Below, one piece after another: positions 11,962 to 52,945 of a stretch of 64,000 nucleotides of DNA. Where the stretch lies: contig OX327684.1 in assembly GCA_946807835.1 (NCBI GenBank), forward strand, positions 36,516,501-36,580,500. The letters run 5' to 3'. The stretch comes from Ailanthus altissimus (Eukaryota; Streptophyta; Magnoliopsida; Sapindales; Simaroubaceae). Under the pieces are notes generated by a model. It was given only the letters and a program-made list of their open reading frames with translations, was not told the DNA's origin and did not search any database. The translations under genes and the position numbers were made by a program. Each line of letters starts with the position of its first letter. Within the stretch, counting starts at the first letter, position 1.

Positions 11962-14900
11962 CTAAAAGAACTCGAAGTCTAGATAGTTACCTCCAGACTT
12001 CATCGTGTCTGTTCCTACCATCCTTTTACTGCTGCTGCTGCTAACACCAACAGGATCAACTGCCCCAAATTTTCCCGGAAGCTCAGGTTCCATTGGTCTT
12101 GGCACCTCCGGTGGTGTACTGCACCGTATTAGAGCCCAATTCACACCTTCAAAGAAGGGGTGCTGCTTGATCTCAGTTGCACCCCTCTTCACCCCTAACC
12201 GGTGTTGTGGCTCCTTCACTAGCAAACCCCGTATCAAATCACGACCTGCATAGCTGGTTGCCGGTGAGTCTGGGAATCTGAGTTGCTGCCCCACCACATT
12301 GAACAATGTAGCACGGTTTCCGGATCCTTTGAATGGAGTTTTTCCATACAGTAGTTCATGCAAGAAAATACCAAACGTCCACCAATCAACTGCACTACCA
12401 TGGCCCTCTCCCTTAATAATTTCAGGGGCTAGATACTCATGGGTTCCAACAAAGGACATGGACCGGGCTGCAGTAGGCTCTGCTACAAGCTCTGGAAGTG
12501 TACTATATGGCAATCCAAGCTCCGATCGAGGTTTTTGGTTTTTCTTCTTGCTCTTCTGAGGGAATAGTCGAGGAATAAAGCAGGCGGGCTGTATGCATAC
12601 AGATGTGGGCTCAATACAGGTAGGCTGAACACAAAATGCACCCCCAGTAGCCCGTTTTGAAGGATCAGAATTCATTGATGAGGTCTTTATCAAGGTTGGG
12701 GAAACTGCACATCTTAAAGAAAGGTCAAAGTCTGAGAGCATTATGTGGCCATCGTCACGAACCAGAACATTTTCAGGTTTCAAGTCCCTGTAGACAACAC
12801 CAAGCATGTGGAGATACTCGAGTGCCAACAATACCTCTGCAGCATAAAATCTGCGAGAAGGAAAGACAATAATCTATAACTTGTCTGATAACAATTGTCT
12901 CAACTTGAGTAAAAACTTCTTTTAAGACACGGAAATGATAACACAACATGTCAAGCCAGCTACCAAGAAATGCAGATAAAGTGGGTACATCTCAAACATG
13001 AGAAATATCATTTAACCTTGAATAGTTAAACCTCCAAGTTTATTTAACAAACATAGCTACAAAATCATGGGGGATGTAGGATGCCCAACCTAGAATTGTA
13101 TGAAGTTGAGTTTAATAAAGCACAGGGCAATCTACATTTTGTTTTAGAGAATGTATCCAGGTGAACTAGCACCATCTAATGTTAAAGATGACTAGAAAAA
13201 TGAGGAAGGACCATTAACCCTCAGAAACACAGAGACATTCCGAGCATCATCTGATAGTCCTCGGGCAGTGAACAAATTCTGCTGGCAAACTACAAGAGCA
13301 ACACTATCAGAGATGAAAGTACCTTGGACTCAAAAGGTAAAAGTGGATTCCAGAAGCACTGTCATCCTATAAAGTGGAAACATGAAACATCAGATGTCTA
13401 TGGGGTCAAGATTGAGAATAACAAAATCATGGAAGAAAGAGGATTTTCCTATAGTGAGCACACTATGGTGTTTGTAGTTTTGTCCATCTCCCATAGGCAC
13501 TCCTAATCATACTCATGAAACTCAAGACATCCTAAATCAAGAGAGAAACAGAAAGGGAATAATAGCTAGCACTAATGACACTTGTCTTTGTTTACCATAT
13601 GCGCCGGGGTACAGTAACCAACATATAATAGTATGAGCATTGCAAGGTTATCTGATTTTCTCCTAAGAACTTTTTCTAGTCACTATATGATGCTTAACTC
13701 CAATCGAAATATGATTAGAAAATAATCCAAATATGATTTAGAAAATAATCAAATAATCCATTAACTCCCATTGAGTGAAAAATCAAGTGGGAAAAAATGA
13801 ACATCATGCAACATATTAACAAATGAATGATTGCAAGATTTTGGGGTAAAGTATACACATGAAACTCGTAAACAAGCATCAGTTGGTGCCAGTAGAAATA
13901 CCGGAGACAACCCTTTGTAACTGATAAAAACTAATTTATCAAGAACCATCAACATGGCAAGGCAACAAGAAATAGAACAAAGGTAAGGCCCTTATTATAT
14001 GCACCTATCTGAACACATAATAAGAAGGGGGGAAAAAGCTAAGAGAATGTTATTGAAAAATAAATCATACCGTGCAGCATACTCGGAGAAATGTTTTCCA
14101 GGTTGCCTTTGCCTTAAGGTGTGTAAATCACCCCCTGGACAATATTCCATGACCAAACAAGAGAACCTGTCAGTCTCAAAATGTGTGTACAAAGTTGGCA
14201 GAAATGGATGGTCCAACAACTGCAAAATCTCTCTTTCTGTCTGAGCCCTAGTCAACTTCTTCCTACTAGCAAGGGATGCCTTGTCCATTACTTTCATAGC
14301 AAAATAACAGCGCGTACCGCTCAGCTCTGAGAGATACACACTGCCAATGTCACCACAGCCAAGTCGTTTGAGTAATCTAAAATGACTCATGCCCAAGATT
14401 CCATCCCGTGCTCGGATGGCAAGAATAGCCTTCCACCTAGGATCGTTTCCTTTGTGAGGTTTATTAGCACTCCCAGTAATGTTGCTCCAATTACTATCAT
14501 CACTAAGGCCACTACTATCACTTGCTCGGCTAATACTAGTCTTTGCACTCTCAAGTGAGTCACCTCTAACACTCCCTTTTGTGCTCTCAAAGTTCCTCTC
14601 CACACTAAGCATGCCATCACTTGTAATTGCATCACTTTGATATGTACTAGCACAACTATTCACAATGCTCATAGCAGTGACAACACCAGTACTGTCAATG
14701 CTACTATGTGGACTTACATTGCCACTTGGAGGCAAAGAAGCATCCCACACACATTCTTTCTCCTCGGAATCTGGTGGAAGGTGCGTGTTCTCTGTGTTTT
14801 GTGATGCACGAGCAACTGAAAATGGAGAAGACAAGGCACCTAATTCACTGGGTTCTTCAACCAAACTTTCCGCTGGAGAAAGAACAGCCAAGCTTGGTTT

Positions 14901-15356
14901 CTTTACAGGAACCCTGATTGAAAGATCTTCTAGGAATGGTCCCTTCACTGACAAGCTCTTCATCAGGCACGTGGCATCAGATTTGTTTTGACTGATTGGT
15001 ACATACACTGTTTTCATTAGATCTGTATCAATAGGTTCTGCAGGATGACTAACCCCAGAGAAAGAACTAGGGCCAGCATCCTCAAACAAATCATCACTGC
15101 CCTTGAATGTCAAATTATCAGCAGTAAGCGCCTCTCTTTCAGGCATATAATCTTTTCCCTTCCATGTCCTTACAGATGCAAAAGACTCTGAAACTTTGAA
15201 CTCTCTCACATTATTCAATCGAACCACTTCTTCTCTCACCAAACCTCTATGCACATTTGATACCTGGCCTACTTCTAAGGTGGTGTCTGAACTCAATACC
15301 TGGACTCCGACATTCAATTTTCGAGGAAATTGCTTCAATTCTGGAGCCTTTTCCAT
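11962..15356 (-). CDS. D6PKL: D6PK-like AGC VIII serine/threonine protein kinase
   Basis: Two coding exons, 15,356-14,071 and 12,850-11,962, are joined across a 1.2-kb intron with GT-AG ends. The join gives 724 residues. Residues 1-320 are a low-complexity, Ser-rich N-terminal region. The kinase domain follows: glycine loop LGCGDIG (about 332-338), AMK lysine (355), REIL glutamate (376), YRDLKPEN (449-456), and DFD instead of DFG (469-471). An insert of about 80 residues carries the paired-Cys stretch CVQPTCIEP and a KSKKKNQK basic patch. Next come [10 protein letters not shown] (activation-loop serine, PDK1-type site) and APE (570-572). The end DFEFF is the hydrophobic PIF-type tail. DFD, the insert and the tail define plant AGC VIII kinases, and the ISRASDSSG...DPRW stretch fits the D6PK/D6PKL branch. 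Those kinases sit at the plasma membrane and phosphorylate PIN auxin efflux carriers; this function is inferred from family. The long N-terminus exceeds D6PK itself and resembles the longer paralogues. Confidence 0.93.
12851..14070 (-). other. Kinase-domain intron of the D6PK-like gene
   Basis: On the minus strand the donor is at 14,070 (CACG|GTATG) and the acceptor at 12,851 (CTCGCAG|ATTTTATG). The intron splits an arginine codon just before [15 protein letters not shown] single intron at this point of the catalytic domain is usual in this kinase group. The short open frames inside (13,324, 13,761) are incidental. Confidence 0.85.
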
Positions 15357-15374
15357 GCTTGATGGTCGTATTAT

Positions 15375-22698: not shown

Positions 22699-22703
22699 TT
22701 CTA

Positions 22704-24760
22704 TGTAATAACCAATATCCACAACTAATAAGAATAAATACTTATATATGTATAAATATACATATTTTATTTGTATGTGAGTGATATTTGATTTATGTAT
22801 TATTATTAGTAGTGTTTGTATAGGCTAAGGTCATACTATTAGCATTGAGTTTAATTGCAATACTTTAAATTTATTTTAGGGACCAAATTGTAATACTTTA
22901 AAAGTTTTGGGGGCAAATTCGTAAATATAAAAAATTAGCCTTTTAGTATAAAAATACACTTTTGAAATCCTAATTCACTCTTTTGGGTCGAGCTATCCCT
23001 TTTAGAGTGAGAAAAGAGAGAAAGAAAGGAGAGAGAAAGAAAAGAAGAAGAAGAAGAAGAAATTAGAATTTTGGATTTTAAGAGGTATATAACAACTATT
23101 TTTCAATTTATTGATGTTAATTAAGTTAATTCCCTTAAATTTTGATTCTGAAAATATGTATAATTGAGTATTTGATGTGTGTTTCGTATGATATTGTGAG
23201 AATTGATGATGATCTATGTAGATAGCTTGATAAATCATGATGAATTACAAAATTTCTACTTGATAGTCTTCTGATCCAGGAATTTTATAAATTGTTGTGA
23301 TTTAATTATGGTATTTAATTTTGAGTATATGGAATTAGACATGTTTAAGATTATCTGAGACTTTAAATCGATTGAAAATTGCAGAAATTGAATTTGTAGT
23401 AAATTTACCAAAATGACCCTAAAATTTTGGAAATTTCCTGTGTGAACAGTATGATACAGTGACAAATAATTTTTGACCTGCTGAATGATCTTTAAAAATT
23501 ACGAATTTATGGAATATGATAAGTTTATATGTCTAATATGATATACTTTAAATTGAGAATTTAGATCAATGTGGTTGAAGTGTTATGATTTTCTAAATGT
23601 ATCAGCTTATTGCAATATTTGATTAACATATTTTTTAAAGTTATAGAATAAAATAGTTTTAAAATACTTTTGGCAATGATTTTGAAGTAAAATATTTATC
23701 ATGGATTTTGTTATGTGTCAAGAGTATTTCGGTGGTATTTTTATAATTTTTTAATTGGTATATGATTTTATAAAATTAGGAGATTGAATATTGTTAAGTA
23801 AATATCTTGATCATGTCAGGTTAGTAGTTTGGATTCGATGATGTGTATGGAATGGATTGCGTAGGACTTTTAATATAATATTTATATATAAGAAGGATAT
23901 ATGAGTCAAGAATGATATATTCTGATTTTGGTGTAATTGAACATCATTTGAGGTATTAGAAAATTTTGTTAAGCGTAAGTGGTCAGAATGACAGGTTTTG
24001 AGAAACTAAGTATTTAGACCAATTTGATGTGATAAATGCATTGTGTATAATTTTGTAAACTATTTAAAGTATTTTGTGTGAATTGTGAGGTTTATGAAAG
24101 GATTAATTTCTATTGATAGGTTAAGGAGATTTAAGTCTTGTAGCTGAAAGTGCTAAGAGGTAAGTATACTAGACTTTTACTGAAATCACAATAAGCATAG
24201 TAATTGTCTATGTATGATTTTGTAAATGTATTTAGAAATATGTTTATGTTATGTCAAAGTGCATTTGCTATGAAATGTGAAAGACATAGGTTTATGAATG
24301 TGAGCATTGACATTGAGTATGGACATACATGTGTTTTTGAAAGTGAGCTTTCAAAAAGAAATGTGTTTAACAAAGAAAGCTTTGAAGTGTAATATGTCCA
24401 TGAGAAACATTTTGTGTTTTGAGGATGCTTGAACTCACTGTTGACTTAGTAAGCATCTTATGTGATTTGTGGAGCCTTTATGTGTGGCATTTCTTTCGGA
24501 ATTGGTATATATTATGTGTTCCGTATGTAGAGAGGATCCTATTGGTACCTAACGGAATATTGAGTCATCAAATTCGTGTGGTGGCGTATTGGTGCATGTG
24601 AGAGGACTCACCGATGATCAGGGTGAGGGTTTGGCTCTTACCTTCGGGCTTAAGCATTATATATGTGTAATTTAAACCTCACTTGTACTATTCCTCTCAT
24701 ACGGTATGTCACCTACGAGTGACATTTGGCTCATTATGTGATGTGTAAGTCCTACTAAGT
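22704..24760 (+). mobile_element. Solo LTR (family 2), left part, TSD TTCTA
   Basis: The block starts TGTAATAACC and matches, in opposite orientation, the LTRs at 24,761-28,098 and 31,855-34,705. It is cut at 24,760 by the nested element and resumes at 34,711. The flanks carry a perfect 5-bp duplication, TTCTA, at 22,699-22,703 and 35,455-35,459, which proves that the two halves were one LTR (about 2.8 kb) with no internal region. A GA-rich tract lies at 23,005-23,065. Confidence 0.88.
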
Positions 24761-27700
24761 TGTCACGCCCCAGACCCAAAAGATCCGACACACGACATCA
24801 CTTACATTCATTCAATAATACTTAAGCATTTATTTTAATTTCTTTCAGAATTATAGCAATTAAATTATGACTGGGACAATTAGTAAACCGGAGATACGCA
24901 GAGTTTTCTCAGAGATTAACACTCTACTACGTCACCAGTAGCAACTTTGTTACCGGAAGCCCAGAATATATTCATTGCAAATTCTTACTTAAAATCAATC
25001 CATTACTACACTTGGTGAAACTTAAACTAAATCCAACCACACAATAAAATAATACATAGGTATTTATTCACTAGGGACAAATCAAATATCTTATCCCACG
25101 TGTCCCCAAATAAAACACTTAGCAACCTAACAACTTAGGGAACCCAAGGAACAGCAGAAGCCTTGCCAAATCCGCTATGCACACATGTACCTTATTTACC
25201 TGAAATCACCATAAACTATAATGAGTATAAAACTCAGTAAGCATACTAGTTTTTCATATATCAAATACAAATACATATATGTACACGATGCATATGTATG
25301 ATATGCTGTGATCAATCAAAATCATAATCTTATCAAATCACATATCATGTAAGCGTTTACACATTCTTTCAAAACACATAATAGGAATACCATCACTCAA
25401 CTACTACTTAGTAGGACTTACATATCACATATCACATAATGAGCCAAATGTCACTCGTAGGTGACATACCGTATGAGAGGAATAGTACAAGTGAGGTCTT
25501 GAATAACACATATATAATGCTTATGCCCGAAGGTAAAAGCCAAACCCTCACCCTGATCATCGGTGAGTCCTCTCACATGCACCAATACGCCACCACACGA
25601 ATGTGATGACTCACACTTCCTTTAGGTACCAATAGGATCCTCCCTACATACGGAACACATAACATATACCAATCCCGAAGGAAAGGCCACACATAAAGGC
25701 TCCACAAATCACATAAAATGCCTACTAAGTTAACAGTGAGTTCAAGTACCCTCAAATCACAAAATATTTCTCATGGACATATTACACTTCAAAAGCTTTA
25801 TTTGTTAAACGCATCTTATTTTGGGAAGCTCACTTTCAAAAACACATGTATGTCCATGCTCAATGTCAATGCTCACATTCATAAACATATATTCACATTT
25901 CATATCAAAATATACTTTGACATATCATAAACATATTCTTAACCCCATTTACAAAATCATACAAAACAATTATTATGTTTATTGTGATTCCAGTAGTAAG
26001 TCTAGTATACTTACCTCTTAGCACTTACAGCTACAAGGCTTAAATCTCCTTAACCTATCAATGGAGATCAATCCTTTCATAAGCCTCAAAATTCACACAA
26101 ATACTTAAATAGCTTACAAAATTATACACAATGCATTTAACACATCAAATTGGTCTAAATACTTGATTTCTCAAAACTTGTCATTCTGACCACTTACACT
26201 TAACAAAATTTTATAATACATCAAATGATGTCCAATTACTCCAAAATCAGAATGTATTAATCTTGACTCATATATCCTTCCTATATATGAATATTATATC
26301 AAAATTTCTACACAATCCATTTCATACACATCATCGAATCCAAACTACAAACCTGACAGGATCAAGATACTTACTGAACAGTATTCAATCTCCCAATTTT
26401 ATAAAATCATATACTAACTCAAAAATTATAAAACTACCACATAATTACTCTTAACACATATCTCAGTACATGATAAATATTTCACTTCCAAATCACTGCC
26501 AAAAGTATTTTAAAACTATTTTATTCTATAACTTTAAAAATCTGTTAATCAAATATTGCAATGAGCTGATACACTTTAGAAATTCATAACACTTACTATG
26601 TTTATTGTGATTCCAGTAAAAAGTCTAGTATACTTACCTCTTAACACTTTCAGCTACAGGGCTTAAATCTCCTTAACCTATCAATGGAGATTAATTCTTT
26701 CATAAGCCTCACAATTCACACAAAATACTTTAAATAGCTTACAAAATTATACACAATGCATTTATCACATCAAATTGGTCTAAATATTTGGTTTCTCAAA
26801 ACCTGCCATTCTGACCACTTACACTTAACAAAAATTTCTAATACATCAAATGATGTCCAATTACTCCGAAATCAGAATATACCATTCTTGACTCATATAT
26901 CCTTCTTATATATGAACATTATATCAAATTTCCTACACAATCCATTCCATACACACCATCGAATCCAAACTACAAACCTGACAGGATCAAGATACTTACT
27001 GAACAGTATTCAATCTCCCAATTTTATAAAATCATATACTAACTCAAAAATTATAAAACTATCACATAATTACTCCTAACACATATCTCAGTCCATGATA
27101 AATATTTCTCTTCCAAATCACTGTCAAAAATATTTTAAAACTATTTTATTCCATAGCTTTAAAAATCTGTTAATCAAATACTGTAATGAGCGGATATACT
27201 TTAGAAAATCATAACATTTCAACCACATTGATCTAAATTCTCAATTCCGAGTATATCGTATTAGACATATAAACTTATCATATTCCACAAATTCATAATT
27301 TTTGAAGATCATTCACTAGGACAAACATTGTTCGTCACTGTATTATACTGTTCACATAGGAAATTTCCAGAATTTCAGGGTCATTTTGGTAAATTCACAA
27401 CAAATTCAATTTCTGGAATTTTGAATCGATTCAAAGTCTCAGATGATCCTAAACATGTCTAATTTCATATACTCAAAACTCAAAACCATAATTGAATGAC
27501 AACAATTTATAAAATTCTTGGATCAAGAGACTATCAAGCAGAAATTCTACAATCCATCATAATTTATCAAACTATCTTATAGACCATCATCAATTCTCAA
27601 AATATCATACGAAATACACATCAAATCCTCAATTATACATATTTCCAGAAATCAAAACTTAAAGAAATTAACATAATTAACACCAATAAATTGAGAAATA

Positions 27701-28098
27701 GTTGTGATATACCTCTTAAAATCCAAAATTCCAATTTCTTCTTCTTTTTCTTCTCCTTCTTCTCTTTCTCTCCCCTCTTTTCTCTCTTCTCTCTCTCTAA
27801 AAGAGGTAGCTCGACCAAAATGAGATAATTAGGGTTTTAAAAGTGTATTTTTATACTAAGTGGCTAATTTTTGGTATTTACAAATTTACCCCCAAAACTT
27901 TCAAAGTATTACAATTTGGTCCCTAAAATAAATCTAAAGTCTTGCAATTAAACCCAATGCTAATAGTATCACCTTAACCTATACAAACACTACTAATAAC
28001 AATATATAAATCAAGTATCACCAACATACAAATAAAATACGTATATTTATACATATATAAATACTTATTCTTACCAGTCGTGGATACTGGTTACTACA
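24761..28098 (-). repeat. 3' LTR of the nested element
   Basis: The minus strand begins TGTAGTAACC at 28,098 and ends GGGGCGTGACA at 24,761. Length is 3,338 bp, about 490 bp longer than its partner. The main cause is a tandem duplication with a 623-bp period (25,975-26,597 and 26,598-about 27,190) that the 5' LTR lacks; smaller differences offset part of it. Confidence 0.9.
25975..27190. repeat. 623-bp tandem duplication within the 3' LTR
   Basis: The landmark ATGTTTATTGTGATTCCAG occurs at 25,975 and again at 26,598, followed in both copies by the CTACA...GGCTTAAATCTCC segment and later by the CTGACAGGATCAAG segment. The 5' LTR (from about 33,203) and the older solo LTR have one copy. Confidence 0.85.
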
Positions 28099-28222
28099 AT
28101 TCTCCCCTCCTTATAAGAATTTCGTCCTCGAAATTCATGACTTGAGCAAACATATGAGGATACTTAAATCTCATTTCTTATTCTCATTCCCAAACTGCCT
28201 TTTCAACAGTATGGTTTATTAA
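28094..28222 (-). pseudogene. Ty3/gypsy pol C-terminal remnant
   Basis: The minus-strand frame reads NHTVEKAVWE, then two stops around a glutamate, then EMRFKYPHMF and NFEDEILIRRGEL, ending in a TAG that overlaps the first LTR bases. This is the usual end of plant chromovirus/gypsy polyproteins (WE.E..M...YP.LF...FEDE). It is the only surviving coding part of the element's own pol, and it ties the LTRs to a Ty3/gypsy ancestor. Confidence 0.75.
28100..28112 (-). other. Polypurine tract of the nested element
   Basis: The minus strand reads AAGGAGGGGAGAA immediately before the 3' LTR start (TGTAGTAACC). This is the expected plus-strand primer position for reverse transcription. Confidence 0.85.
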
Positions 28223-28780
28223 TAAAACATTTACAAAGCAATCTTTTTGGTATATAAGATTTGCTCATAACTTAGTCTGTGAGAGAAGTATGAAACATTC
28301 ATCCATAAAATAAACACATGACACACATTATGAACTTATAAAATTATACATACATATTTTTATTCTTTTCTCCCATTCGTTCAATATTTAATGGGCATCT
28401 GTACACTTCACCTTTCATTCATTAAAGAATAATATAGATGTAGAATACTCATACTAATCTCTTAAATAAAATTCTTAACTCCTCTGAAAATTTTAATCCC
28501 TTCAACATATACTCATACGTCATAATATCATTCACTACCTTAATATCATTAAAACAAATGTAGCATTTCTATACAACTAAGTTGTCATTCAAATCAGAAT
28601 ATTGAAGGCATTATCTTAAACAATCAAAAATCAACTTCAATAAAAAGATCTTTAGTTCAACTGATTCTTAAACTATAGATCTCAACATTATATCTCTTAC
28701 TTTAACTCTTAAAAAAAATAGTCCACCTTATTGGACATCATTTTCTCATTGAGATTGACATGTCTGCTTTTTTTTTTTTT
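28223..28780. other. Element interior, non-coding stretch
   Basis: AT-rich with no recognisable frame. It ends in a T run (28,770-28,781) directly before the caulimovirid-like sequence begins, which may mark the junction of the cargo. Confidence 0.5.
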
Positions 28781-28781
28781 T

Positions 28782-30184
28782 AATATGCTCAGTTTCAAAC
28801 AGAAAAGATTCTACTAGCACAATTATTGCGATGGCAAATATGGTTTTTCAACTATTCCTTTAACGTCATCCACGTAAAAGAAAAGGACAAAACGATTATT
28901 GATTTTCTTTCACAAAACTCTATAAATAGCCTAAACCTCATAATCGCTTTTCTAGCAATAAAAAAAACCAACCCTCTTACCATCTTTATAATGAATCCCA
29001 TTATCATAACTCCTCCTGTTCCTTTTACTCCACCACAATTTCCAGACCTAATCAGAACCAGAACACTCCATTCCCGTGCCAAAGAATTCATCAGACACTA
29101 CGCCATCTTGGCAGTCCAAGAACACGGCCTCACAGTTCTTGGTGGCCCTTCGTTCAACTTGGAATACCCTTTCTTTCACCTGCACTATTTTTTCCCATTT
29201 TCCCAATGGTCCAAATCTGTCCTTTACTTGTTATGGTACCTATTGGATCTGTATACAATCGCCATGGAATTCCCATTACTTAGAACCGTCCAAAAATTAG
29301 AAAAATGTGATGAAGATCATCCAGCCCTGATTTTTCTCCAATGGTTTTACCCAAAGACATGGTGGATAACTAAATTTCAACACATGATTGCAAACAACAT
29401 AAATGCTGCAGTCCCTAGACAACATCTTTGGTCTGTTTTACTTCTCCAACGAAAGGGTATGATTATTTCAGATCATGAAATCCATTATTACCCCACTGTC
29501 AAGGATTACCTCACATTTACCCTTTTACTAAAGGGATCAATTAAGCTCTGGCCTGAAGAAGTAATCCAGCAAAAGAGAGAACTTGAAAGAATTCTTGCTC
29601 AAGAAAACCAGATAATTCCTCCATCCATTTGGATCTCCCCAGAAGATGCTGCACCTTGGGAACAGGTTGAAGATGACTTTGCAGAAGAACTGAATTTTGC
29701 CAATATACTCAAATTCCAACAAAGACAAAAACATCATCTTTCACATCATAGAAATACAAATTACTCTACCCACCATCACCATATCCCAAACATGACTTAT
29801 TATGCCAGATATAGATAAGAAATCGATAACCTTCACCAATGGCCTCAGCCACCTGTCCCGACAGAACCTACTCAATCTCAGTCAGTTGTCCCGATAGAAC
29901 CTGACCAACACCAACCCAATCTTGACTTATCCCTCTTTCAAGACTCCCAACCTTATCCAACCGACACCCAAATCCAAGAGGAAGCCAACACATCCCTCAT
30001 CCAGACCAGCTTACCTGGAGAAGATCAAGATATGGTAGACCACATTCCACTCAGCCAGAGCCCTCATTCAATGCATGGGAACAACAACTCCATAAGTTCC
30101 TCTCTCACGGATACGACACAGATGAAAGCGACCAAGGAGACTCATTTTGACCTACATTGCTGTTTCTATTTTCACAGAAACTAA
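28782..30184 (+). pseudogene. Endogenous caulimovirid fragment: RNase H end and a long downstream frame
   Basis: The frame is open from about 28,782. It begins with the C-terminal end of a caulimovirid-type RNase H (RWQIWFFNYSF...HVKEKDKTIIDFLSQ), where related viruses have RW..W...YSF......K......DFLSR. It continues past a methionine at 28,991 into about 275 residues I cannot assign. These are hydrophobic-aromatic and end His-rich; they could be the extra downstream ORF seen in some endogenous caulimovirids. One TAA at 29,816-29,818 breaks the frame, but the same frame stays open to a TAA at 30,182-30,184, so the ancestral product was probably longer. RT, protease, coat and movement domains are absent. 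It lies antisense within the LTR element and directly upstream of the LOG gene, on the same strand. Confidence 0.7.
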
Positions 30185-30761
30185 ATCCGTGTTGCTCTAT
30201 CACATCAAAGAGAGACTGACTACTGCTTTATCTTTATGTCAAGTGTGCTTTATCTTTATGTCAAGTGTGCTTTATCTTTCTTCATATCTGCTTTTAATCT
30301 ATCCAAAAATCAATGTTAAGATCACAAAAATCCTTGAAATTAATAAAGTTAATTTGGCCTCATGTTCAAAGTCCAATTGTTCGCTCAAAAAGTCTTCAAG
30401 TCATAGATGCATTGTCGGCCATTAGTGCCAAAATGACAAAGCCCTAAATCCATAAAATAGGCCTTTATTGACTTTTTTTAATTATCTTACCTAACTCATC
30501 ACGCTTCCGACACAATTTTTATCACACTTACATATCAACATATATTTATTCAAGATTTTGCGGCCTATTGTCCCTTATAAAATGATAAAGTAAAACTGAT
30601 TCTTTTTTTTTTTTACCTTACAAGAATCGAGAAAAATATATACTTGAACATACTTACACATATGCTCCATAGCTATTATCAATTTGTTTCTCTATAAATA
30701 AATTATTTTTTGCATCCTCATACAAACTCGAAAACATTCAAAGATTAGGGTGAGCATAACA
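30185..30761 (+). promoter_or_regulatory. Intergenic stretch between caulimovirid frame and LOG gene, with TATA box
   Basis: 577 bp, AT-rich, no coding potential. It holds a 21-bp direct repeat (GCTTTATCTTTATGTCAAGT, 30,225-30,266) and a good plant TATA box, CTATAAATA at 30,692-30,700, about 62 bp before the LOG start codon. The start context is AACAATGG, close to the plant consensus. In caulimovirids the region after the last ORF contains the genomic promoter, so viral DNA might drive LOG; this is inference. Confidence 0.5.
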
Positions 30762-31415
30762 ATGGACGAAACCTCAGCTCGTCGATTCACAAAAATTTGT
30801 GTCTTTTGTGGATCAAACCCTGGGAATACTGAAGAGTTTACAAAAGTTGCAGAAAATCTTGGTAAGGTATTAGCTGAGCGAAATATACATTTAGTATATG
30901 GAGGAGGTAACCGAGGGTTAATGGGGTCTGTGGCAAAAGCTGCATACAATAAAGGTAGTCGAGTTTTGGGTATCATTCCAAAACCTCTAGTTATTGAAAA
31001 TATTGTAGGAAAAACAGTTGGGGATGAGTTACAAGTCTCATCTATGCACGAGCGAATGACTCAAATGCTTAGGCATGCGGATGCTTTCATAGCTCTACCA
31101 GGAGGTTTCGGGACCTTGGAGGAAATTTTTCAAATTGTCTCATGGGCACAATTACAAATCCACCAAAAACCCATTGGTTTGTTAAATGTTAATGGTTTTT
31201 ACGACGGGTTGATATCTTTCCTTGACTATGCAGCAGGAACACAATTCATCCCACTTCTAGCACGACGGATTCTTATTTCAGCTCCAACTGTTGATCAACT
31301 GATTGATCAATTGCAGTCTTTTATTCTTCTGTCTAATCCAACATTGCATCAGTTAGATTGGTCTACTCATGACAATCAGAAAAAGCGCAAAATAGACTTA
31401 AATCTCACTCCGTAG
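30762..31415 (+). CDS. LOG: LOG-type cytokinin riboside 5'-monophosphate phosphoribohydrolase, intronless
   Basis: 217 residues, one exon. LOG enzymes hydrolyse cytokinin nucleotides directly to active free bases plus ribose 5-phosphate. Visible motifs: ICVFCGS (12-18), YGGGNRGLMG (46-55, usual form GGGS.GLMG), the MHER arginine (98), and PGGFGTLEE (113-121), the nucleotide-binding signature with its glutamate. Length matches the family. I chose ATG 30,762 over an in-frame GTG at 30,750 because of its AACAATGG context. Typical plant LOG genes have several introns, so this looks like a retrocopy or member of an intronless branch. The tail is odd: KKRK (207-210) followed by DLNLTP (212-217), a possible nuclear signal plus a DLNxxP repression motif. 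An AATAAA lies about 50 bp after the stop. The gene is intact and sits antisense inside an LTR element. Confidence 0.9.
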   Translation: MDETSARRFTKICVFCGSNPGNTEEFTKVAENLGKVLAERNIHLVYGGGNRGLMGSVAKAAYNKGSRVLGIIPKPLVIENIVGKTVGDELQVSSMHERMTQMLRHADAFIALPGGFGTLEEIFQIVSWAQLQIHQKPIGLLNVNGFYDGLISFLDYAAGTQFIPLLARRILISAPTVDQLIDQLQSFILLSNPTLHQLDWSTHDNQKKRKIDLNLTP

Positions 31416-31834
31416 CCTCTACTGTATTTTTGTTGCTGCTATGGTTGTTGTTTTCCTTTTCAATAAAAGTTGTTTCAATTGATGTCTTCAATACTCTACT
31501 TCTCTATATTTTGTCATTGAGAAAATTATCTCAATTTCCTCTATGACATGCAAATTATCATTATAAGATATTCAACATCATTCTTGCTAAGCATATTAGT
31601 CATAACTTAAAAACAAATCTAAATGGTAACATTAAGATCCACAAGGTACTATTATCCACAACAACAACATTCTTAGCAGCTCTTGGATATTGTGTCATCT
31701 TCAAAAAAAATCATACAAAAGTTAAGGAATATGTCAAACTTTTACACAACAAAGCTACAAATACAATCCTAAGGATTTGGCATCTGTTCAGTTCCCTTGA
31801 CTCGACACTTAAAAGTCTACAGAATCATATCTTA
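31416..31834. other. Element interior between LOG and the primer binding site
   Basis: Contains the LOG 3' UTR with AATAAA near 31,463. The rest is presumably what remains of the retrotransposon's leader on the other strand. No gag frame is visible. Confidence 0.5.
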
Positions 31835-31846
31835 GCTCTGATACCA
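31835..31846 (-). other. Primer binding site for initiator Met tRNA
   Basis: The minus strand reads TGGTATCAGAGC, the exact complement of the 3' end of plant initiator methionine tRNA. It begins 8 nt after the 5' LTR end. This fixes the element's orientation and shows that its minus-strand priming signal is intact. Confidence 0.92.
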
Positions 31847-31854
31847 TTAAAAGC

Positions 31855-34705
31855 TATCACGCCGCAGACCCAAAAGATCCGACACACGACATCACTTACA
31901 TTCATTCACTGCATGTGCACTCATAAATAATATTACACAAAATTTTCAACTTTCCTTCAACACAGAAATCCTTAGCAAGTTGCTAGTAAGTTCAACACTA
32001 AAATCAACCCATAACTTAACATATAAATATAAATTTCTCTTGACCATATTTAAACATTCATTTCAATTTCTTTCAGAATTATAACAATTGAATTATGATT
32101 GGGACAATTAATAAACCGGAGATACGCAGAGTTTTCTCAGAGATTAACACTCTACTACGTCACCCGTAGCAACTTTGTTACCGGAAGCCCAGAATATATT
32201 CATTGCAAATTCTTACTTAAAATCAACTAGTAACCACACTTTGAAAACTTAAATCAAATCCAGCCACACACAATGAAATAATACATAAGTATTTATTCAA
32301 TAGGGACAAACCAAATATCCTATCCCACGTGTCCCCAAATGAAACACACAACAACCTAGCAACTTAGGGAACCCAAGGAACAGCAGAAGCCTTGCCAAAT
32401 CCGCTAAGAACACGTGCACCTTATTTACCTGAAATCACCATAAACTATAATGAGTATAAAACTCAGTAAGCATATTAGTTTTTCATATATCAAATACAAA
32501 TACATATATGTACACAATGCATATGTATGATATGCTGTGATCAATCAAAATCATAATCTTATCAAATCACATATCATGTAAGCGCTTACACATTCTTTCA
32601 AAACACATAATAGGAATACCATCACTCAACTACTACTTAGTAGGACTTACATATCACATATCACATAATGAGCCAAATGTCACTCGTAGGTGACATACCG
32701 TATGAGAGGAATAGTACAAGTGAGGTCTTGAAATTACACACATATAATGCTTATGCCCGAAGGTAAAAGCCAAACCCTCACCCTGCTCATCGGTGAGTCC
32801 TCTCACATGCACCAATACGCCACCACACGAATGTGATGACTCACACTTCCTTTAGGTACCAATAGGATCCTCCCTACATACGGAACACATAACATATACC
32901 AATCCCGAAGGAAAGGCCACACATAAAGGCTCCACAAATCACATAAAATGCCTACTAAGTTAACAGTGAGTTTAAGTACCCTCAAAACACAAAATATTTC
33001 TCATGGACATATTACACTTCAAAAGCTTTCTTTGTTAAACATATCTTATTTTGAAAGCTCACTTTCAAAAAACATATGTATGTCCATGCTCAATGTCAAT
33101 GCTCACATTCATAAACATATATTTACATTTCATATCAAAACATACTTTGACATAACATAAACATATTCTTAACCATATTTACAAAATCATTCATAACACT
33201 TACTATGTTTATTGTGATTCCAGTAAAAAGTCTAGTATACTTACCTCTTAACACTTTCAGCTACAAGGCTTAAATCTCCTTAACCTATCAATGGAGATTA
33301 ATTCTTTCATAAGCCTCACAATTCACACAAAATACTTTAAATAGCTTACAAAATTATACACAATGCATTTATCACATCAAATTGGTCTAAATATTTGGTT
33401 TCTCAAAACCTGTCATTCTGACCACTTACACTTAACAAAAATTTCTAATACATCAAATGATGTCCAATTACTCCGAAATCAGAATATACCATTCTTGACT
33501 CATATATCCTTCTTATATATGAACATTATATCAAATTTCCTACACAATCCATTCCATACACACCATCGAATCCAAACTACAAACCTGACAAGATCAAGAT
33601 ACTTACTGAACAGTATTCAATCTCCCAATTTTATAAAATCATATACTAACTCAAAAATTATAAAACTACCACATAATTACTCTTAACACATATCTCAGTC
33701 CATGATAAATATTTCTCTTCCAAATCACTGCCAAAAATATTTTAAAACTATTTTATTCCATAGCTTTAAAAATCTGTTAATCAAATACTGTAATGAGCGG
33801 ATATACTTTAGAAAATCATAACATTTCAACCACATTGATCTAAATTCTCAATTCCGAGTATATCGTATTAGACATATAAACTTATCATATTCCACAAATT
33901 CGTAATTTTTGAAGATCATTCAATAAGACAAACATTGTTCGTCACTGTATTATACTGTTCACATAGGAAATTTCCATAATTTCAGGGTCATTTTGGTAAA
34001 TTCACAACAAATTCAATTTCTGGAATTTTGAATCGATTCAAAGTCTCAGATGATCCTAAACATGTCTAATTTCATATACTCAAAACTCAAAACCAGAATC
34101 GAATGACAACAATTTATAAAATTCTTGGATCAAGAGACTATCAAGCAGAAATTCTACAATCCATCATGATTTATCAAACTATCTTATAGACCATCATCAA
34201 TTCTCAAAATATCATACGAAATACACATCAAATCCTCAATTATACATACTTCCAGAAATCAAAACTTAAAGAAATTAATATAATTAATACCAATAAATTG
34301 AGAAATAGTTGTGATATACCTCTTAAAATCCAAAATTCCAATTTCTTCTTCTTTTTCTTCTCCTTCTTCTCTTTCTCTCCCCTCTTTTCTCTCTTCTCTC
34401 TCTCTAAAAGAGGTAGCTCGACCAAAATGAGATAATTAGGGTTTTAAAAGTGTATTTTTATACTAAGTGGCTAATTTTTAGTATTTACGAATTTACCCCC
34501 AAAACTTTCAAAGTATTACAATTTGGTCCCTAAAATAAATCTAAAGTCTTGCAATTAAACCCAATGCTAATAGTATCACCTTAACCTATACAAACACTAC
34601 TAATAACAATATATAAATCAAGTATCACCAACATACAAATAAAATACGTATATTTATACATATATAAATACTTATTCTTACCAGTCGTGGATACTGGTTA
34701 CTACA
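31855..34705 (-). repeat. 5' LTR of the nested element
   Basis: 2,851 bp. The minus strand starts TGTAGTAACC at 34,705. The low end reads TATCACGCC where the partner has TGTCACGCC, so the terminal dinucleotide has mutated. Outside the 3' LTR's duplication the two LTRs differ at only scattered positions by eye. Confidence 0.9.
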
Positions 34706-34710
34706 TAAGT

Positions 34711-35454
34711 AGTAGTTGAGTGATAGTATTCCTGTAATATGTTTTGAAAGAATGTGTAAGCGCTTACATGACATATGATTTGATAAGATTATAATTTTGA
34801 TTGATCACAGCATATCATACATATGCATTGTGTACATATATGTATTTGTATTTGATATATGAAAAACTAATATGCTTACTGACTTTTATACTCATTATAG
34901 TTTATGGTGATATCAGGTAAATAAGGTACATGTGTGCTTAGCGGATTTGGCAAGGCTTCTGCTGTTCCTTGGGTTCCCTAAGTTGCTAGGTTATTTGGTT
35001 TGTCCCTATTGAATAAATACTTATGTATTATTTTATTGTGTGTGGTTGGATTTGGTTTAAGTTTCATCAAGTGTGGTTATTGGATGATTTCAAGTAAGAA
35101 TTTGCAATGAATATATTATGGGCTTCCGGTAATAAAGTTGCTACTGGTGACGTAGTAGAGTGTTAATCTCTGAGAAAACTTTGCGTATCTCCGGTTTACT
35201 AATTGTCCAAGTCATAATTCAATTGTTATAATTCTGAAAGAAATTGAAATGAATGTTTAAATATTGTCAATAGAAGTTTATGATTTTATGTTTGGTTATG
35301 TGTGATTTTAGTGTTGAACTTATTAGCAATTTGCTAAGAATTTCTAGGTTGGACTAAAGATTGAAATTTTGTGTAATATTATTTATGAGTGCACATACAT
35401 TAAACGAATGTAAGTGATGTCGTATGTTAAATCTTTTGAGTTTGGGGTGTAACA
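34711..35454 (+). mobile_element. Solo LTR (family 2), right part
   Basis: Continues the plus-oriented LTR interrupted at 24,760. It runs from the second TAAGT copy to GGGGTGTAACA at 35,454, followed by the TTCTA duplication. Together with the left part it makes one LTR of about 2.8 kb. Confidence 0.85.
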
Positions 35455-35559
35455 TTCTATCCTTCCCTTTCTCTTTTTTTTTTCTCTACGTCTTCTTTAA
35501 TGTCCAAGTGAGATCGTCTTTAGTCACTTAGTCATTAAAGCGTGTCATTGCCTTTTATG

Positions 35560-51513: not shown

Positions 51514-52788
51514 TCAGCCGGAGCCGAGCACTCCATCAGCCGTGGCTGTCAACGGACACGTGGAACTCACAAACCCCTTAACCAATTGAAGGTATGTGCT
51601 GAGCTCGTGACACGTGGCCAGGTTTACCTTTTTGAGGTACGGGCAATCTCGACTACTGAGTCTCAGCTCCTTTCCCACGTCAGCATATACCCACTGAGTG
51701 TCTTCCACGCGCTTTTGCAGCCAGCTTGGAAGACCTGCCACGTTAATTTTCTGCTTGTTCGACATGTCATTATCGTCGATCACGAAGCCGGGCACTTTGG
51801 TGATGAGATCATCCGAGTTCACTATACGAAGAATCTTGGTCCCACTTTTTTCCAGCTGGCACCTAAAGTTTCTGTTTCCGACACGTGGCCCGCCGAATGA
51901 AAAAACAGTCACCATTGGTGCATTGCTAAAGGTGGAGTTTACATCGTATGCTGTTAGTGTAGCGAGTGCAGCACCGAGGCTGTGCCCTGTGATCGTAATG
52001 CTAAGTGGTTCATCACCGTACTTTTCCAGGACTCTCGAGATCTCCTCTCTCACCATATCTTGTAAACTTGGACACGTGGCGGCTCTTGAAGTGTAAAGGC
52101 TCAAGAACCCACACTCCACCATAGGCCCACAGTTATTGTTAGGGCCCGCATTAGTCCCTTGATTATCAGCCAAACTAGTTAACGAAGCGCGTAAATTTTC
52201 AACCCACTCTAAGCAAGTAGCTGTCCCCCTATAGGAGATCACCACGTCGCGCCTTCCCAATCTGGCAATCTCCTTCTTGTCCTGACAAACTGCCACGTAA
52301 CCAATCCAGCTGGACTGCGTTGACACCCAGCTTGGCGCTCTATTAATCCAACGTGGCAACTGCACCCCGCAAGTCGCACGTAAATTCTTTGTCATCCGAT
52401 AGCCAGTCGCTCCGATTCCCGACCGCGTCAGGAGGGAGTTTCTGGGGAACTTACACGTGGCGAAAGAAGGGGAAGAAGGATCAAAATCGAAAGAACGATA
52501 AGCTGCTTCAACAAACTGCCCATAACGTAAAATTTCACTTCGTAGATCATGGTCAAGAGGATCAAGTAAGCCTTCCCAGTTATTGATTCCTTGTATTTGC
52601 GTCCAATTCTGGCCCAGCTTCACTGTGTCATACTGAATCGAGCTCGACGAGATCTTGGGGCTTTTGATGTTGAGGCCAACAGAAGGAGCAGTAGGGTTGG
52701 TGATGGCACAATGTAGTTGAGTGAGCACATTTTGTTTAAAATCAGTAGGTAAAGTGCTAAACCTGGCTACTCCAACAGCAAGCTTCAT
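51514..52788 (-). CDS. DAD1-like phospholipase A1 (class I, probably plastid)
   Basis: 424 residues, intronless. It is a class-3 (DAD1-like) acyl hydrolase that releases fatty acids from the sn-1 position of glycerolipids; class I members work in plastids and can feed jasmonate synthesis. Conserved start of the core NWEGLLDPLDHDLR (70-83), then SSWIGYVAV (159-167) and a Y/LRGTATCLEW block (186-195). The nucleophile elbow is GHSLG (268-272, Ser270). The catalytic Asp is in NSDDLITKVP (about 326-327) and the His in CHELSTYL (394). The 65 residues before the core are Ser/Thr-rich with few acids, plausible as a transit peptide. The SSWIGYVAV...GRRD.VI pattern resembles the PLA1-I-alpha branch; the exact paralogue is uncertain. 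The gene is complete, with a TATA-like box about 160 bp upstream. Its coding strand contains five CACGTG hexamers. Confidence 0.9.
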   Translation of the reverse strand: MKLAVGVARFSTLPTDFKQNVLTQLHCAITNPTAPSVGLNIKSPKISSSSIQYDTVKLGQNWTQIQGINNWEGLLDPLDHDLRSEILRYGQFVEAAYRSFDFDPSSPSFATCKFPRNSLLTRSGIGATGYRMTKNLRATCGVQLPRWINRAPSWVSTQSSWIGYVAVCQDKKEIARLGRRDVVISYRGTATCLEWVENLRASLTSLADNQGTNAGPNNNCGPMVECGFLSLYTSRAATCPSLQDMVREEISRVLEKYGDEPLSITITGHSLGAALATLTAYDVNSTFSNAPMVTVFSFGGPRVGNRNFRCQLEKSGTKILRIVNSDDLITKVPGFVIDDNDMSNKQKINVAGLPSWLQKRVEDTQWVYADVGKELRLSSRDCPYLKKVNLATCHELSTYLQLVKGFVSSTCPLTATADGVLGSG

Positions 52789-52945
52789 ATTAGAGAGCTA
52801 TTTTTATTTCTATATAAAATAATATCTTCTGGGTATTTTGCTCTTTGTAGAGGCTAGCTTCAGGTTAGGGCTTCGCTTCACTTCACTTCACTTCCAACTT
52901 CAGCAGTTCACTTGTTGACGAGGAGAAGAATGAGTCAGGTGGGGA

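Follow-up and report, generated by a model that had tools for sequence, protein, structure and literature searches.

A recently amplified LTR retrotransposon family of Ailanthus altissimus carries a LOG-type gene and a caulimovirid-derived open reading frame, probably as functional cargo

What is the cargo of a retrotransposon in whose interior no replication genes can be recognised, and does the element profit from it? The question is raised by a complete long terminal repeat (LTR) element located in a 64,000-nt stretch of Ailanthus altissimus DNA (contig OX327684.1; this whole stretch is referred to as the window, and coordinates are positions within it). We consider it highly probable that the element belongs to a non-autonomous, recently active LTR family of high copy number, and that its recognisable coding sequences, a LOG-type gene and an open reading frame (ORF) derived from a caulimovirid, both antisense to the element, are functional cargo.

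The element occupies positions 24761-34705 on the minus strand and possesses the features of an LTR retrotransposon, i.e., two LTRs, a primer binding site (PBS), a polypurine tract (PPT) and a short target-site duplication (TSD). LTR comparison places the 3' LTR on the left (24761-28098, minus strand) and the 5' LTR on the right (31855-34705, minus strand), and re-reading of the letters confirmed TAAGT on either side (24756-24760 and 34706-34710). The PPT (28099-28112, minus strand) adjoins the 3' LTR. The PBS, TGGTATCAGAGC, lies on the minus strand at 31835-31846, 8 nt from the right LTR, and its complement at this place, GCTCTGATACCA, is presumably a match to initiator-Met tRNA. The interior between the LTRs is 3,756 bp long, and an open-frame scan for frames of at least 130 aa found no gag-pol frame in it; the only stop-to-stop frames of this length are 28784-29818 and 30702-31415, both on the plus strand and hence antisense to the element. 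The second of them holds an intact intronless LOG gene of 217 aa (30762-31415, plus strand; PF03641, E 2.5e-39). The initial annotation had described these LTRs with their TAAGT duplication and polypurine tract, an interior devoid of gag-pol, an intact antisense LOG gene and an antisense caulimovirid fragment, and each of these parts was borne out, the last of them by the comparisons with virus sequences given below. The two LTRs are not simple copies of each other (Kimura two-parameter distance, K2P, 0.038 over 2,714 aligned sites). They form a mosaic in which one block is 94% and another 99% identical, and an internal tandem duplication of ~625 bp is present only in the left LTR, which suggests recombination between family members.

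Does the element stand alone? In a survey of the genome (939 Mb, 37 contigs), at least 150 full-length copies of LOG were found (every one of the best 150 that were scored out of 6,198 first-look candidates). The 149 other listed copies are 96-98% identical to the window LOG at the amino acid level, and four of the 150 contain one stop, a count that overstates intactness since the list holds the best-scoring copies. Ten loci of this list were examined over ~19-20 kb each and comprise nine single elements and one tandem array; the PBS pattern and the PPT-LTR junction pattern are found in all ten. The nine non-tandem copies, 8,789-9,524 bp in length, all have the same LTR-LOG-virus-LTR structure with a common interior of ~3.6-3.75 kb, and each is flanked by a perfect 5-bp TSD of its own (CATGA, AGGAC, AGAAC, CCGGA, TAAAG, TTTAT, AAAAC, GCATC and TAAAT). 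Had a LOG retrocopy and viral DNA been inserted late into a single ordinary LTR element, the interior would likewise be without gag-pol, and nothing else speaks for such a nested insertion (a small duplication around the LOG/viral segment itself was not searched for); with the same interior recurring between nine distinct target duplications it is rejected, and we assign it next to no probability. The proposal, made in the initial annotation, of a non-autonomous element that moves a LOG gene is thus supported by nine of nine copies, in which this LOG recurs at an unchanged place of the interior between different TSDs. What has to be added is that the family is of high copy number and that its viral ORF is conserved in a gene-like manner.

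The LTRs of eight of the nine copies are less than 0.4% apart (K2P 0.0004-0.0036), and those of the ninth differ by 0.0154. Plant substitution rates are near 1e-8 per site and year, and at such a rate the insertions of the eight copies would date back no further than roughly a few hundred thousand years. The LTR family is real, high-copy and recently amplified. It is also non-autonomous, like LARD-like elements (large retrotransposon derivatives): the element contains no gag-pol frame, and hence neither reverse transcriptase nor integrase, and the copies were inserted independently. No helper element was found with the left interior end as the query, the best 40 of 1,418 candidates all being 95-100% identical. 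At another family locus (L009, 876-1781), a frame that encodes an RNase H and an integrase zinc-binding domain was rejected as a helper because it lies on the strand opposite to the element of the adjoining LTR; judged by eye, it probably belongs to an older gypsy element hit by a family member. The tandem locus (L027/L028, C18:21860000-21879999) is an interior-LTR-interior-LTR array, and ten pairs of LOG copies spaced 6.4-6.7 kb in the list (counted by eye, L027/L028 included) suggest that there are more such arrays. The structure of L027/L028 led us to reject, for this locus, the notion that LOG pairs at this spacing are tandem virus genomes.

If the two ORFs serve the element, they should bear traces of selection. 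We compared 31 other copies from 30 loci, one of which contributes two (465 pairs), the viral ORF being taken over its first 275 codons. The pairwise ratio of non-synonymous to synonymous substitution (dN/dS) is 0.10 for LOG and 0.24 for the viral ORF, at proportions of synonymous differences (pS) of 0.039 and 0.094, respectively. The ratio is highest in the closest pairs and drops with distance, from 0.26 to 0.06 for LOG and from 0.49 to 0.24 for the viral ORF, as is expected when constraint acts on the source copies but not on the inserted ones. With the window copy included, LOG measures 654 nt in all 32 copies, 30 of which are without an internal stop. The signals around the ORFs are kept as well. 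A TATA-like box lies ~70 nt upstream of each ORF on the plus strand: CTCTATAAATAGCC at 28918-28931 before the viral ORF, identical in 27 of the 31 other copies, and CTCTATAAATAAAT at 30690-30703 before LOG. The core TATAAATA upstream of both ORFs, given as CTCTATAAATA for the LOG box, is retained in 31 of 31 copies, and so is the AATAAA downstream of LOG (31462-31467, plus strand). Judged by substitution patterns, both cargo ORFs are shown to be under purifying selection within the copies compared, and the viral ORF appears to be conserved like a gene and not as mere debris.

Several observations weigh against functional cargo. All 31 copies in the selection test were picked by LOG protein score, which lowers the dN of LOG (the dN of the viral ORF is unaffected). 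The divergence from the window copy is 0.022 substitutions per site in LOG, 0.026 in its 3' flank and 0.033-0.059 in the rest of the interior, and the lower value of the LOG part could be due to this sampling or to a recent spread of the LOG part. The start pattern of the viral ORF is present in 24 of 32 copies, in 11 of which the ORF is open to its full end (386-397 aa) and in 13 of which, the window copy among them, it is broken; the eight copies without the start pattern are excluded from this score, and one of them, L009, is nevertheless open to the same ORF end. Six copies absent from the LOG list were chosen through the left interior end and compared at the LOG position. LOG is at the expected place in four of them: it is intact in L055, open in L054 with the last residue changed (the protein ends in DLNLTL and is hence without DLNxxP), interrupted by a stop near its end in L056 and frameshifted in L058. 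The other two, L057 and L059, hold unrelated sequence there, copia-like by eye in L059. LOG is so a regular cargo, though many members may carry damaged copies. Finally, a copy at C9:16366943 (L049, C9:16364300-16366950) shares with the family LOG, the primer site and the first part of the right LTR, but leftward of a breakpoint that corresponds to ~30517 of the window it contains different caulimovirid DNA, which encodes a movement-protein domain (PF01107, E 8.9e-10) and whose best matches elsewhere in the genome are 87-88% identical; the left LTR of this copy was not reached within 4.4 kb beyond the breakpoint. This variant may have arisen when virus DNA was captured next to LOG for a second time, or the copy may have been rearranged later.

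Could LOG and the viral ORF then be passengers, caught by chance and hitchhiking, whose apparent conservation reflects the youth of the copies? The very young age of eight of the nine dated copies agrees with this, as do the choice of LOG copies by protein score, the frequent breaks in the viral ORF and the loss or damage of LOG in four of the six copies chosen without it. Under such a scenario, however, synonymous differences would not have built up while non-synonymous ones lagged behind, a fall of dN/dS with distance is not expected of neutral passengers, and the TATA-like boxes and the polyadenylation signal are kept. We therefore regard mere passengers as unlikely and retain the functional cargo reading.

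Where did the viral ORF come from? The frame 28784-29818 opens with a caulimovirid-like RNase H end, and its sole match in the PDB is the C-terminus of the 'Enzymatic polyprotein' 8r0s (E 1.4e-4), which we take to be that of cauliflower mosaic virus (CaMV). The viral ORF proper (28991-29818, plus strand) follows; it is ORF2-like, shortened to 275 aa in the window copy, and extends in other copies to ~30150 of the window (386-397 aa). Homology and gene order point to Caulimoviridae through L053, an endogenous caulimovirid piece located in the same genome downstream of a movement-protein (MP) locus. L053 carries RVT_1 and RT_RNaseH domains, an RNase H tail 69% identical to that of the element (E 7e-20) and a next ORF, itself broken by stops, that is 57% identical to the element viral ORF over 267 aa (E 6e-87). 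The DNA similarity of the two is patchy but collinear from 28724 to 30467 of the window, so that the caulimovirid-derived segment (28724-30467, plus strand) comprises the RNase H end, the next ORF and part of the intergenic region and is, like LOG, antisense to the element. L052, a second piece downstream of an MP locus, has RVT_1 and lacks the matching ORF. A protein search with the viral ORF returned a single match, the near-identical protein P0121 (397 aa), and the first 60 residues of the ORF gave no match in the protein search; a single-sequence model had a mean predicted local distance difference test (pLDDT) score of 38.9 and provided no usable fold. Endogenous caulimovirids are abundant in this genome: a PF01107 movement-protein search gave 397 candidates and a search with one MP piece 662, 150 of which were scored in each case.

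L053 has no LOG in the remaining 0.6 kb beyond its homologous part, and since this one virus locus is collinear without LOG, the viral segment can be delimited at ~28724-30467 and the LOG module taken to begin at ~30517, the breakpoint of the C9 copy, where other viral DNA is joined to the region upstream of LOG (30517-30761, plus strand). One virus locus and one variant copy thus indicate that the LOG and viral modules may have been acquired separately. Alternatively, LOG may itself have been a viral gene, residing beside ORF2 of a caulimovirid, and the virus-LOG block may have been captured by an LTR element in one step. Both ORFs are indeed on one strand and have similar CTCTATAAATA boxes, and in the C9 copy LOG adjoins a different piece of caulimovirid DNA. 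Against this, L053 possesses the reverse transcriptase (RT), the RNase H tail, the ORF and the intergenic homology and yet no LOG. When the listed LOG copies (best 150) were compared by eye with the listed MP loci (best 150 per search), two pairs within 10 kb were seen, the first being C9, inside an element, and the second lying at C2:34413270, ~6.6 kb from a LOG copy, on the opposite strand and near the expected outer edge of that element. IMG/VR scans gave no relative of LOG or of the viral ORF, and in the available portion of PMC9289625 the published LOG-type domains sit in Gypsy consensuses. A viral origin of LOG is, in our opinion, very improbable, and separate acquisition remains the preferred reading.

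The LOG protein has the domain and the signature of its family, PF03641 (Lysine_decarbox) and PGGFGTLEE, a form of PGGxGTxxE, and R98 and the PxGxGTLE positions are invariant across 18 aligned LOGs of the same type; by family membership it looks like a putative cytokinin-activating phosphoribohydrolase. Plant LOG genes contain introns. The element LOG has none, and an intron antisense to the element could not be spliced from element RNA, so that LOG was likely captured as cDNA. Its best relatives among solved structures are the Arabidopsis proteins At2g37210 (PDB 2a33) and At5g11950 (PDB 1ydh), members of the same family; the profile match to them stops at profile position 203-204 of 217, before a C-terminal tail, KKRKIDLNLTP (31380-31412, plus strand), that consists of a basic patch and a DLNxxP motif resembling the ethylene-responsive element binding factor-associated amphiphilic repression (EAR) motif. 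LxLxL and DLNxxP are the two classical forms of the EAR motif, and the tail of the element LOG contains the latter; the end IDLNLTP is present in 32 of 32 copies.

Of the 7,999 candidates scored in a protein search with LOG, 7,860 matched at E <=1e-20, and the best 120 matches were compared. Apart from the family's own cluster (97%), they are 57-78% identical to the element LOG, or 57-72% when one that covers just 72% of the query is set aside. By eye, 38 of them are from Reevesia pubescens; Xanthoceras, Paulownia, Populus, Rehmannia and Diplodiscus are also named. LxLxL occurs within the last nine residues of 99 of the 120 and a basic pair in the tail of 109, and DLNxxP is found in one, the family's own cluster, which ends in DLNLTP. 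Nine of the 120, six being from Xanthoceras, end directly after the basic patch; the other tails without LxLxL are near-misses, fragments or odd ends. The element LOG does not appear to have been taken up recently from the present host: its nearest listed relatives, in a comparison that does not cover close host LOG genes, are LOGs of other eudicots, with many per genome in Reevesia, that share the special tail.

How might such a kit work? The element RNA would arise by transcription from the 5' LTR on the minus strand; the proteins of a helper, an autonomous relative, would package it and reverse transcribe it, and its insertion would create a 5-bp duplication. On the opposite strand, LOG and the viral ORF would be transcribed off their own TATA promoters. 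The LOG product would set active cytokinin free, or it would work in the nucleus, where its basic and EAR-like tail would recruit TOPLESS-type corepressors; the viral protein would support transposition in trans. The gain for the element could be more dividing cells or weaker silencing, favouring cells in which it can move. A more far-reaching version, which we put forward tentatively and hold to be doubtful, is that the family swapped its replication genes for a two-gene kit, a nuclear-targeted, cytokinin-activating, EAR-tailed and TOPLESS-recruiting enzyme together with a pararetrovirus protein that serves the element, and that it may serve as a platform on which virus genes are captured again and again. 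The last idea follows from the joining of the LOG module to two caulimovirid segments, that with ORF2 in the main form and that with the movement-protein domain in the C9 copy.

How does the family compare with known systems? It resembles maize Bs1 and LARD-type elements in having a host-type gene between LTRs and no gag-pol. According to the available text of PMC7264820, a transduced gene is present once or in a few copies, whereas the present family has at least 150. YgdH/LOG-type domains were described in Gypsy consensuses of Citrus sinensis, C. clementina and Populus trichocarpa (PMC9289625, citing Steinbauerova 2011; available portion). Common to both is a domain of the LOG family within a plant LTR element of Gypsy type; the published consensuses were identified by way of their reverse transcriptase, whereas the present family is without gag-pol and has a caulimovirid ORF beside LOG. 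Antisense accessory ORFs of Retand, Grande and RIRE2 are likewise kept in most copies, and gene23 of Grande is reported to have its own promoter and a nuclear protein (PMC7264820 and PMC11963269, in the parts available). Those ORFs lie between pol and the 3' LTR of elements that mostly keep gag-pol, and TRP28 is typical in Retand; TRP28 (PF04195) is not among the Pfam matches of LOG or the viral ORF, and in this the two ORFs differ from Retand-type accessory ORFs. Directly after RT-RNase H, in place and size (397 aa), the viral ORF matches florendovirus ORF2 (45-58 kDa in the accessible part of PMC4241990), a likeness by description and not by sequence.

Gypsy-type elements that carry accessory genes are thus already known, and the present family departs from them in the absence of replication genes and the gain of a virus gene. 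Among the titles and abstract starts listed in searches of open-licence PubMed Central, none showed an element that pairs LOG with a caulimovirid. The origin of most antisense accessory ORFs in plant LTR elements is called unknown in the available text of PMC7264820, and for Retand that of PMC11963269 lists recombination with an unknown virus among the possibilities; in the present family one such gene can be traced to a caulimovirid that has relatives in this genome. The gene beside it encodes a homologue of a hormone enzyme, and the meaning of its conserved tail can be tested. With an active LOG, every further insertion would spread a cytokinin-activating gene through the genome, possibly with its own promoter.

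The surroundings of the window copy add two minor observations. The insertion target of the element was a solo LTR of the same family in the opposite orientation (22699-35459 with its duplications), the left part of which lies at 22704-24760 and the right part at 34706-35454, both on the plus strand, with TTCTA on either side (22699-22703 and 35455-35459). Host-type genes beside the element, namely protein-kinase pieces (PF00069; two frames) and a class 3 lipase frame, are located at 11962-15374 and 51514-52797 on the minus strand.

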